From contig NC_090964.1 in NCBI RefSeq assembly GCF_040807025.1, forward strand, positions 8,084,214-8,148,213: a stretch of 64,000 nt of DNA. Direction: 5' to 3'. The DNA comes from Struthio camelus (Eukaryota; Chordata; Aves; Struthioniformes; Struthionidae). Made by a program: the position numbers and the translations under genes. The notes under the pieces were generated by a model. That model saw only the letters and a list, made by a program, of their open reading frames with translations, searched no databases and was not told the DNA's origin. This document shows, one piece after another, positions 38,401 to 44,400 of the stretch (the first letter of the stretch is position 1; each line of letters opens with the position of its first letter).

Positions 38401-41400
38401 GGTATTGTCCCAGCAGTATCCATGAGCGGAGTGTAATTCAGAGAAAGCTAGCACCACCGTGATGCAGACATTTATTCTTTAATAAACCACAGAAATCTGT
38501 TCTTGACTTCTCTTTGCAGCTGAGCGTGCTCTAGATACCATGAATTTTGATGTGATCAAAGGAAAACCAATTCGCATCATGTGGTCTCAGAGGGACCCCT
38601 CCTTGAGGAAGTCAGGGGTTGGGAACGTCTTCATTAAGAACCTGGACAAATCCATTGATAACAAGGCACTTTATGACACGTTTTCAGCGTTTGGGAATAT
38701 TTTGTCCTGCAAGGTGAGATGTGGTTACTTTCTCCAGTTCTATTCTAGTGTTGACATGATCAGATATATTCAACGCAGAAAGCGAAAGGAACACCTTTCA
38801 CCAAGGGAGGGATGGAATCTCTAAAAGGCAGAGTTGACCAAAAGGTCAAGGATTGCTGAAGTTATGTCAGATTTGGATATCAGGTGTGCCAGTTTGAAAG
38901 GCAGATAGCATCTTACGCGCTTTGACCCTTGGCAGTAGCTTATTCTTCCGCACTCAGAGAGCTGACAATTCAATTTCCTTCCACATGTCCAGGTGGTGTG
39001 TGATGAGAATGGCTCTAAGGGCTACGCATTTGTGCACTTTGAGACCCAGGATGCTGCAGATAGAGCCATCGAGAAGATGAACGGCATGCTGCTAAACGAC
39101 CGCAAAGTGTGAGTGTCACAGCCAGAAGCAGCAACGATCGCATGAACCGTGATGCATCTCGGTATTAACAGGGACACACAAGGCACTGGTTCTCCTGGCC
39201 CAAGCCTTGGCCTGCTACCTCTCCACTACAGGGCTGGTGAGTGACCCTGCCCAAGCCATGGCCTGCTATCTCTCCATTACAGGGCTGTTGGGTTTCCCTA
39301 ACCAAGCCTTGATCTGCTACCTTTCCGCTAGTGGGCTGGGGTGGGTCTCTGTGGCCAGTACTCTCTCCACTGCAGAGCTGGGTGGGCATCCTTGGCTGCT
39401 TCTCTTCACCATAGGTCAGGTGATTTTTCTGGCTGGTCTGTGGCCTTTTTGTCCTTCTCTTTTCTGTTGCCCTTCCCTCTCCCCATTCCCAGTTCCTACT
39501 ATACACTCATTTTTTTGCCTCACTGCAAATCACACACACTGCTTCCATTCTTGAAAGCAACCTGCTCATTGTGATTTTTTTTCCTTTTTTCTGCCCTACA
39601 GGTTTGTTGGGAGATTTAAATCTCGTAAAGAACGGGAGGCTGAGCTGGGAGCCAAAGCAAAGGAATTCACCAATGTTTATATTAAAAACTTTGGGGATGA
39701 CATGGATGATGAAAGACTAAAGGAGCTCTTCAGCAAATATGGTAAATACAGAAACACTTTCAATGCAGCTGTGAGTGTCATAACCCATGTTAATTTGACA
39801 GTGCTGCTACCATCTGTATGGCCCCACCGGGGTCGTTTTGAGGCTGAAGAACAGGAAGAGATGAAACGTGGGTAGTTGTGCCAAGTGTTGGACAGAAGGC
39901 AGAGGCTGACGAGCAGATGAGAGAGAAGGCTAGGGCAATTATATGTAGTGTGATAGTCTTGAAATAGTTTCATATGATGTTTTACTAACCCTGTCCCTTT
40001 GCAATAGGTAAGACTCTAAGCGTTAAAGTGATGACAGACCCCACTGGAAAATCCAAAGGCTTTGGCTTTGTGAGCTTTGAAAAGCATGAAGATGCCAACA
40101 AGGTATGACCAACTTTTATGTGGCTTGGTTATCCTTAGAGAAGTAAAACTTGCCTGGCTTACCACAGGAGCCTATGACATGATACTGAAATGAGCTAAAA
40201 CTCTGCCTGAGGCCTAATGTCATCTAGGTTTTCAGACTAAAAACCTTTTACACGTCACTAGCTTGACATTCAGGAGTAAGTTGGCATTTCTCCAGCTTAC
40301 TAGATCCATGCAGAATTCAGTAAGATAATCAAGAACATTATTGCTAATACTGCAGTGGGGGGCTTCAGGGGAAGGAAGATGTCTAGAGTAAGAACACTGC
40401 TTAGAAATGCTCCTTTTCCAGCAGCATACTTGTCAAAATTTGGCTCTAACTTCAAGAAGGGGTGGGGAAATAACAAATTGCTGTTGTTAGGCGAGTGCTT
40501 GTGGTGAGGTTGTCAGCGTGGTCTCTTCTGATAGCTTTAGTTTGTCTTTAGCTAGCCTGTGTTATGTAGGAGTAACACAAAGGTCATATGGTGACCTTGG
40601 CTTTATTGGCTAGCAGATAGGGATATGATATAAGCTTTTAACAGTGAAGCTCTTAACAGGATCAGCTACTGTCTTGTTTTTAGAGTTGACAACTTTCTCT
40701 TTGAACCTTCTACCCAGGCAGTGGAAGAAATGAATGGAAAGGATATCAATGGGAAAATGGTGTTTGTAGGTCGAGCGCAGAAGAAAGTAGAGCGCCAGGC
40801 AGAACTGAAAAGGAAGTTTGAGCAGCTAAAACAAGAGAGAATCAGCCGGTACCAGGTAGCAATCTGTTTCTTTTCTGGATGTAAATATCAGTCTTGATGA
40901 TGAGCTATGTGCTAGGAGCACATGAGAACCTCTGTGATGCATTCTCCTTTGTCTTCAAATGGGGATACCTGAAAGGATGGAAAGAGACAGCACAATTCTG
41001 TGCTGTTGTATCTCTAATTTATGGTGGACTGTATTGCACTAGACATTGCATCTGAATCTTTCCCACTCCTTGCAGCGTAGTGCTGGACTGGGGACACGTG
41101 ATGCGACAGAAAAGCAGAGGAAATCCAGACGGGCTCCCTTTTACCACAGCGGGACTTGTCTCTACACCTTTGCAACATATATTGCCTTCAGTTTGGGGGA
41201 TACAGAAAAGAAAGTTATGCTAAACTAACAGTTTTTAGACAAATGGACAGGCTTGGGAGATGGGTGTTAACAGTCAGTGTGCTCAAGATTCCTTGTTATT
41301 GATATGGATGTCTTATGTATACTGTTCTCTCCCTTCTAGGGAGTTAACCTGTACATTAAAAACCTGGATGACACGATAGATGATGAAAAACTGAGAAAGG

Positions 41401-44400
41401 AGTTCTCACCTTTTGGGTCAATAACAAGTGCCAAGGTATTGTGGGCTTTGAGGGTATTTGGACTTTAAACCCTGAAGAACTGCTATCTGACATGGCATTC
41501 AAGTACAATTCCTGTATCCCCTGGCCATTCAGGTTTTGAGAACATCTGGACTAATAAATATGCAGATTTCAGCAGGTCTGGGGGGGATTGTAGTAATAAC
41601 TTGTTCTCACCGTCTCACCAAAAGAGGAGTCAGTAAATGGCAAACATGCTTGTTTGAGGTGACTCCTATAAGCAAGAGATGGTTCTTGGTTGCGTTCCCC
41701 TACACGCATTTAAAGGTTGCACCTGATCTTTCCCATTCCTTGCTGCCTAGTGCGGGCCTGGGGACACACGGTGCTTACAGAAAAGCAGAGTAAATCCAGA
41801 CAGGTGTGTTTACTTTTATTGAGTACTTGTCTCTACAACTCTGTGACAGTTCTGTCCTACCTGGAGAATCTGACATTTTTCTAGGGTGAAAAATATGGAC
41901 TCCTAGGCTAAGTTCTTGTAGTGCTGCTCCACTAACAATTGATATTTACTGCAGGTGATGCTGGAAGATGGACGGAGCAAAGGGTTCGGCTTCGTCTGCT
42001 TCTCTTCTCCAGAGGAAGCTACAAAAGCTGTGACGGAGATGAATGGGCGAATTGTGGGCTCGAAGCCATTGTACGTTGCGCTTGCACAAAGGAAAGAAGA
42101 GCGAAAGGCCCATCTAACTAATCAGTACATGCAACGCATTGCTGGGATGAGAGCCTTGCCTGCCAACACAATCATTAACCAGTTCCAGCCTGCTGCTGGG
42201 GGATATTTCATGCCTGCTGTGCCCCAGGTAAGCTGAGCTGAGTTAGTGTGGTTTTATGGACACTTTAACCTGGCTTGGACCTTTGGTTCAACTGCAGTAA
42301 GCCCATGGAGCCTTTCTTGTGCCTGTAACTAAGCAAACAGCTCCTAATGAGAGGTGCAGAGTCAGTGGAGTTAATTGTGTGGCTTCTGATCTGCCTTCTC
42401 TCTTATGAGAATTGAGTGTTGAATCCTGGGAACAACTGCCAAAGCATGTTGCAAACGATGTTTGTTATTCACTTCATGTTCCTTCTGAGCTTGTCTCATC
42501 TCTCTTCAGGCTCAGAGCAGACCCACTTACTATGCACCCAATCAAATGACGCAGATGAGACCTAACCCACGCTGGCAGCAAGGGGGGAGACCTCAAGGTG
42601 AGCATGCTAGACACAGTGCTTTGGTTGTATGACCCTTTTGGCTGTATTTTCCAACAAGAGCAATGCATAGTTTCCCTGCCATGCAGAGCCCCAACCTGCT
42701 GCTTGTAGCTGACTGTCGTGATTGCCAGTCAGTTCTGTTTTGAGGATTTCCCCTCCTTTCTTCCATTAGGCTTCCAGGGAATGCCAAATGCCATGCGCCA
42801 GTCTGGACCACGGCCAGCACTGCGCCATCTGGCCCCTGCCGGCAATGCTCCAGCCTCTCGTGGCCTCCCTGCCGCTGCCCAGCGAGTTGGTAAGGTGTCT
42901 GCCTCCCAGGCTCTTCCCCTCATTCATGGGGAAGGGGGATGGTATTAAGACTTGACTTTTACATCAGACGTGGATAACGGAAGGCTGCCTGGAGCAAGGG
43001 GCAAAGACGGCACCTGAATCTTTCCTGTTCCTTGCTGTGCAGTGCAGGTCTGGGGACAATTGGTGCTACAGCAAAGCAGTGGAAATCCAGATGGGTTGCT
43101 TTCCTTTCACCTGGAACTCATCTCTACAACTCTGCAACACTTACTGCTCAAAAATGGCTCTGTAGATTATGGGTGGTGGTTTCAGAGTAAAGCATCCAAA
43201 TTCACTTTATTTCAGGGAATAAGTAGAAAATGTCTTAAAAGCAGATATAGAATCTATGGCTTAGTGTTAGGGAGGGTAGCTCCTTTCTAAAGAAGCCAAT
43301 TGGATTTTGGAGGCCAGTTTCTAAACCAGTATTAGGCTGTGCAGTGCATAATTAAAGTCCAGCAGTTAATATCAGACATCCCAATTTGCTTGCTGCGTGT
43401 TACTGTGGCTGTGTAATTCTGTCCTACTCTTCCTTTTCAGGTGTTGCCGCTGCAGCGCAGAATTTAGCTCCTCGTCCGCCAGTAGCTGCCCCTGCTCCCC
43501 GAGCAGTTCCTCCTTATAAATACGCCTCGAGTGTTCGCAGCCCACATCCGGCTGTACAGTCTTTGCAGGTAATGCAGTGGTCTGCTCTGTCAAGTCTGTC
43601 TAGTTAACGACAGTCCAACAGGTTTTACACGCAGCTGAAGTGTTTTTACAGAAACTTCAAGCTACTTTTTTATAGTCCCGACAGGGATCAGAAACTGGAA
43701 TTTAGAAAACTGGCAGTTGTCGTCACATACCTCCGCCAGGGGCAACTTGGTTGATTTGTCTGTCTTACTCTTCTAAGCCCTTTTTATCCAGATTTGCTGT
43801 AAGGCTGCTATTCTTGGCTCTTTGCTCTCACACTTTTGCTAGCTTTCACTCTCTCTCATCTCTTTGCTGAATTCTCGCTAGGGTATCACTGAAAGCACAG
43901 CTTGCCTCTCTATACACCGCTGCATTGTGCAAAAAGCAAACATGGGTGTTTCTCTTTCTCTGCCATGACATTTGCCTTATAATGCAAGGTCCAGTTTTTA
44001 TAACTAGGATATTTGCAAGCTACGTGCCCCTGTGTGACATTCTAGTTTTTGAGAATAGGACTTGGAGCGTGTTTGTGAACACAGGGCACCTTATCTGTCC
44101 TTTTCTGAAACTGACTCTACTGCAGGCCTGACAGAGTGCCATGTTTTAGAGGAAGGAAGAACTGCCTTGTCTTTAAATATGAAACAATCAGTCTGGCATC
44201 TGTTTTTGAATCCTCATCTTTGCCATTCTATAGGCACCTCAGCCTGCAGTACATGTGCAGGGACAGGAACCACTAACGGCCTCCATGCTGGCTGCTGCAC
44301 CTCCCCAGGAGCAGAAACAGATGCTGGGTAAGTGAATCTCCTGTTTTTTTACAGATCACATCTTATTTTGGAAATCCCATCAGGTTTCAGAGAACTGTTT

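Follow-up and report, generated by a model that had tools for sequence, protein, structure and literature searches.

Three SNORA55 copies in introns of the ostrich PABPC4 gene and their predicted pairing with U36 of 18S rRNA

The H/ACA small nucleolar RNA (snoRNA) SNORA55 is present in three copies in the PABPC4 gene of the ostrich, Struthio camelus. We analyzed a stretch of 64,000 nucleotides (nt) from this genome (RefSeq assembly GCF_040807025.1, contig NC_090964.1, positions 8,084,214 to 8,148,213 of the forward strand), called the window below and numbered from its first nucleotide. Three PABPC4 introns each hold a full-length SNORA55, and all three RNAs are very probably spliced out and guide, redundantly, the formation of pseudouridine 36 in 18S ribosomal RNA (rRNA). 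The copies are real, well-formed SNORA55 H/ACA snoRNA sequences: family membership, the boxes, the hairpin pairs, the intron positions and a 5' pocket fitting 18S U36 are established for every one of them. The three-copy finding, though real, is ordinary, since it has already been described in chicken.

Extent, boxes and hairpins of the copies

A preliminary description of the window had proposed three SNORA55-like copies in three PABPC4 introns, starting at 41048, 41719 and 43010. A covariance-model search with Rfam SNORA55 (RF00431) bore out both the copies and their starts: each matches the whole model (1-135 of 135) on the plus strand, with E-values from 4.5e-23 to 1.3e-27 and scores far above the gathering cut-off of 45 bits. 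No further or decayed SNORA55 copy was found at an E-value up to 1 in positions 30000-56000, and over the full window no such copy exceeded the cut-off. No other RNA family in Rfam reached its own cut-off anywhere in the 64 kb. The copies are listed here with their H boxes (assigned from sequence and alignment) and ACA boxes (from sequence and the Rfam match).

41048-41180, + strand: SNORA55 copy 1, in PABPC4 intron 6 (40856-41339, 484 nt); RF00431, 110.8 bits
41719-41851, + strand: SNORA55 copy 2, in PABPC4 intron 7 (41436-41954, 519 nt); RF00431, 114.6 bits
43010-43142, + strand: SNORA55 copy 3, in PABPC4 intron 10 (42890-43440, 551 nt); RF00431, 128.4 bits
41106-41111, + strand: H box ACAGAA of copy 1
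41777-41782, + strand: H box ACAGAA of copy 2
43068-43073, + strand: H box ACAGCA of copy 3
41175-41177, + strand: ACA box of copy 1
41846-41848, + strand: ACA box of copy 2
43137-43139, + strand: ACA box of copy 3

The H boxes all fit ANANNA, sit between the two hairpins and lie at an offset of +58, just as the preliminary description had stated. The 3' end needed correction. In each copy the ACA box is followed by 3 nt to the end of the RNA (41180, 41851 and 43142, the ends of the Rfam matches). The spacing of 3 nt had been given before, but for the wrong ACA: the triplet chosen then (41164-41166 in copy 1) is part of the 3' pocket strand CUACA, and the true box lies 11 nt further 3'. The boundary drawn there, which gave 122 nt per copy, truncates the 3' hairpin within the 3' strand of its closing stem (model positions 68-73 with 123-128). 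The Rfam match span is 133 nt per copy, with predicted, model-based ends.

The hairpin-hinge-hairpin-tail layout is found, both in the model pairs that are formed and in two double compensatory pairs. One of these, pair 4-54 in the 5' closing stem, reads U-A in copy 1 but C-G in both other copies, confirming the covariation claimed earlier for this stem. The other, pair 84-113 in the 3' hairpin, had been missed; it is C-G in copies 1 and 2 and U-A in copy 3. Copy 1 has gaps at three apical pairs of the model (95-97). The closing stems are kept, save for pair 72-124 of copy 3, a U-U mismatch in its 3' closing stem. Minimum-energy folding returned two hairpins for copies 1 and 2; for copy 3, the 3' hairpin came out in another register.

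Guide pockets and their pairing with 18S rRNA

We considered the 5' pocket opened up to model pair 15-45. On the left this exposes the guide AAUCUUU, or GAUCUUU in copy 2, and on the right GACA, or GACAA in copy 3. Their predicted partners in 18S rRNA are AAAGAUU and (U)UGUC around U36, and the 5' pocket of every copy fits this site.

41055-41061, + strand: left guide AATCTTT of the 5' pocket, copy 1 (partner GACA, 41093-41096); predicted pairing with 18S U36, 7+4
41725-41731, + strand: left guide GATCTTT of the 5' pocket, copy 2 (partner GACA, 41763-41766)
43017-43023, + strand: left guide AATCTTT of the 5' pocket, copy 3 (partner GACAA, 43055-43059); 7+5

Copy 2 has lost one A in its left guide, and the paired stretch is kept through a G-U pair; with the preceding T included, it forms 8 pairs, one of them G-U, plus 4 (8+4). 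Copy 3 gains one pair in the right guide, which is the longest of the three.

The comparison of the guide loops with rRNA, proposed in the preliminary description, was run for the 5' pockets on 13 contigs carrying eukaryotic 18S rRNA, mostly partial and none known as bird. All three pockets fit U36, which ranked first among 5'-pocket sites in all 13 contigs and was the sole one reported in 12; the remaining contig (L006) has one weaker second site. Because the contigs were fetched by a pattern that contains the U36 site, its presence in them is given by construction, and only the absence of other 5'-pocket sites is informative. Both end motifs of 18S rRNA occur in 3 of the 13 contigs, several of which cover less than 350 nt of it, and a 28S motif was found in none. 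The 18S stretch was not found in a scan of viral contigs. As a separate observation, the 13 contigs (L001-L013) are filed under bacterial or archaeal species, and the eukaryotic 18S rRNA that they carry is presumably assembly contamination.

The strands of the 3' pocket are the following.

41120-41126, + strand: left strand GAAATCC of the 3' pocket, copy 1 (partner CTACAC, 41162-41167)
41791-41797, + strand: left strand TAAATCC of the 3' pocket, copy 2 (partner CTACAA, 41833-41838)
43082-43088, + strand: left strand GAAATCC of the 3' pocket, copy 3 (partner CTACAA, 43124-43129)

The core of this pocket, AAAUCC / CUACA, is identical in all three copies. Across the three copies the 3' pocket is about as conserved as the 5' pocket: 11 of 13 columns are invariant (one-sided Fisher P 0.041) versus 10 of 11 (P 0.021), gapped columns being counted as variable. 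Scanning the same 13 contigs with the 3' pocket yielded a strong site in one (L013) and a weak site in another (L012), both with the pocket closed; opening one further pair left no site in these mostly partial 18S sequences. For the chicken homolog, Shao et al. (2009, PMC2653536) give a target for the 5' pocket of isoform a only.

Known relatives, origin and retention of the copies

The family model matched at full length by all three copies, RF00431, is that of human SNORA55 (ACA55), of which human PABPC4 hosts one copy, compared with three here. The preliminary description had implied that three copies were new. This implication fails because the three-copy layout has already been published for chicken. 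Table 2 of Shao et al. (2009, PMC2653536) lists three isoforms of the chicken snoRNA GGgACA4, hosted by PABPC4 introns 6, 7 and 10, the same introns as in the ostrich. Length and guide are stated there for isoform a alone: it is 131 nt long, compared with the Rfam span of 133 nt here, its 5' pocket targets 18S-36 through 7+4 nt, the same site as predicted for the copies described here, and its homologs are given as U69/ACA55. Shao et al. explain nearly all paralogous snoRNAs of chicken by intragenic duplication and note that many have kept their guide regions. It was the only paper we found that names both PABPC4 and ACA55, and the only one to use the name GGgACA4. The main texts of a bird survey (PMC4378963) and a rhesus study (PMC2832892), in the portions available, do not name SNORA55, ACA55 or PABPC4; the available portions of PMC6123486 and PMC6629867 are silent on SNORA55 copies, and those of PMC9198423 concern cancer. 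A literature search on copy number in birds found no paper.

How did the three copies arise? Every pair of them has 102 identical positions (about 75% identity), and since all three pairs are equal, the order of duplication is not recoverable from identity. Homology had been said to run about 18 nt past the ACA, from which a local duplication of DNA together with its flanks was proposed. Because the earlier boundary cut through the 3' closing stem, the claimed homology beyond the end is mostly the RNA itself, which accounts for 11 nt; over the first 10 nt past the true 3' end, the three copy pairs share only 5, 5 and 2 identical positions. Five of six flank comparisons, made with provisional intron ends that are 1 to 3 nt off the final ends for copies 2 and 3, score within single-base shuffles, which leaves duplication with flank lacking clear sequence support. 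Most likely, the copies would have arisen by old intragenic (cis) duplication, with the flanks drifting while the RNA stayed about 75% identical.

Perhaps the copies were spread instead by retroposition of the RNA? This would leave no clear flank homology past the RNA, as observed, and short A runs do follow copy 3 (five A) and copy 1 (four A) on the 3' side. However, inspection by eye of the 40 nt 3' of each copy revealed no long poly(A) tail, the longest A run being five, and all copies share a single host gene and its orientation. Moreover, Shao et al. (PMC2653536) saw no retroposon-like snoRNAs in chicken, where they attribute nearly all paralogs to intragenic duplication. We consider retroposition unlikely.

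The pockets bear on whether the copies have been kept by selection. With gapped columns counted as variable, 21 of 24 pocket columns are invariant versus 62 of 111 others (one-sided Fisher P 0.0026); among gap-free columns alone the counts are 21 of 24 versus 62 of 103 (P 0.008), from which we take the guide pockets to be undiverged. Taken with the roughly 75% identity of the copies and with flanks that mostly score like shuffles, this suggests that the duplications are old and that purifying selection has since acted on all three RNAs, as judged from three paralogs of one genome.

Several points weigh against this reading and against three working guides. The pocket columns were picked after the alignment had been seen, the conservation counts compare three paralogs of one genome and include no orthologs, and the contrast shrinks to 21 of 24 versus 47 of 74 (P 0.021) when the variable apical loops are removed. 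Among the flank comparisons, that between copies 2 and 3 on the 5' side stands out, with only 6 of 300 shuffles scoring as high. All three copies fall below the full model in the pairs they form in the Rfam alignment rows: 26 of 31 in copy 1 (a count that leaves out 3 unaligned nt of that copy), 30 of 31 in copy 2 and 28 of 31 in copy 3. While the single-sequence fold of copy 1 is clearly more stable than its shuffles (z-score -3.39), no unusual stability is seen for copies 2 and 3 (-1.51 and -0.60), and because fold stability is mixed across the copies, folding energy alone is insufficient to prove these genes. Finally, Shao et al. (PMC2653536) assayed 14 guide snoRNAs by reverse-transcription PCR, and GGgACA4 is not one of the six that their text names.

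These weaknesses might be read as the signs of a single working copy, probably copy 3, which has the best model fit, while the other two are weakly or not expressed and slowly decaying. Copy 3 indeed scores highest and has the longest right guide, copy 1 has its apical gaps and forms the fewest pairs, and copy 2 relies on a G-U pair where it lost an A. Yet the H box, the ACA box and both pockets are kept in all three copies, as are the closing stems apart from the one U-U in copy 3 itself. The fold of copy 1 is the most stable of the three, and compensatory pairs are not expected in decayed copies. We therefore regard a single working copy as quite improbable. It is very unlikely indeed that the pockets have diverged to serve different targets, as had also been suggested: one left-guide position does differ in either pocket of copy 2, as does one position on the right strand of the 3' pocket of copy 1, but every 5' pocket still fits 18S U36, and conservation is higher in the pocket columns than elsewhere in the RNA.

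To judge from their sequences, the three copies are likely to act as redundant guides for pseudouridine 36 of 18S rRNA, in a dosage-type role. Splicing would release one snoRNA from each of introns 6, 7 and 10; the released RNAs would assemble with H/ACA proteins, and all three would direct pseudouridine formation at U36 of 18S rRNA. Selection for dosage or for backup would then retain three copies, and the gain in dosage raised in the preliminary description would fit the data.

A second guide of the same uridine may be relevant here. In human, the pseudouridine at 18S U36 has been measured and SNORA69 (U69) named as a guide of it, a role also predicted for the ostrich copies; SNORA69 guides 5.8S U69 as well (PMC11001866). 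SNORA69 thus differs from the copies described here in belonging to another family and in having this second target. Table 2 of Shao et al. names both U69 and ACA55 as mammalian guides of 18S-36, whereas the chicken counterpart of U69, GGgACA2 (RPL39 intron 2), is listed for 5.8S-69 only; the double duty of U69 is split in chicken (PMC2653536). Since human U36 is guided by SNORA69 and the chicken counterpart of U69 is listed only for 5.8S-69, the SNORA55 copies may make up for a lost second guide. We tentatively propose, as a possibility that is far from likely, that in birds SNORA55 tripled in PABPC4 and took over 18S U36, that U69 kept only 5.8S U69, and that the 3' pocket of SNORA55 guides a second uridine. 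The hand-over is weakened by GGgACA5, which the same table lists as a possible further 18S-36 guide with 4+5 nt (PMC2653536).

The ostrich copies are an independently derived confirmation of published intragenic snoRNA duplication with conserved guide pockets, and their analysis corrects the 3' end given in the preliminary description.

The host gene and other features of the window

The coding part of the host gene was delimited by its GT-AG introns, its open frame and its match to TIGR01628.

32457-44758, + strand: PABPC4 coding part, 14 coding exons, 630 amino acids

GT-AG ends were present at 13 of 13 introns, and the 14 joined exons form an open frame of 630 amino acids. The protein matches NCBIfam TIGR01628 (PABP-1234, the family of poly(A)-binding protein [PABP] types 1-4) at 849.3 bits. 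Among the best 60 of 340 matches to solved structures, the top rows are the poly(A)-binding protein 6r5k, followed mostly by PABP1. By its sequence, the protein is taken to be PABPC4 rather than PABPC1. In addition, domain scanning of 10 long open frames in the window found a match in three, which lie on either side of PABPC4.

1052-1864, + strand: open frame with a 5'-nucleotidase domain
25002-25730, + strand: open frame with a Hairy/Orange domain
54715-55524, - strand: open frame with a TGF-beta domain

In human, the neighbourhood of PABPC4 reads NT5C1A - HEYL - PABPC4 - BMP8, with which the three domains agree. The assignment of the host to PABPC4 rather than PABPC1 is thus supported by sequence and by synteny with the neighbours in the window.

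PABPC4 intron 3 contains three tandem copies of a repeat at 39187-39351, with 51-nt spacing; over 63 nt, the first is matched at 78% by the second and at 73% by the third. A different repeat, at 54158-54342, matches several microRNA models (mir-297, mir-466 and others) on both strands, below their cut-offs. It accounts for all 12 microRNA matches among the 15 Rfam matches obtained at an E-value up to 1 in positions 30000-56000, the other three being the SNORA55 copies. The microRNA-model matches on this repeat are most likely a low-complexity artefact.

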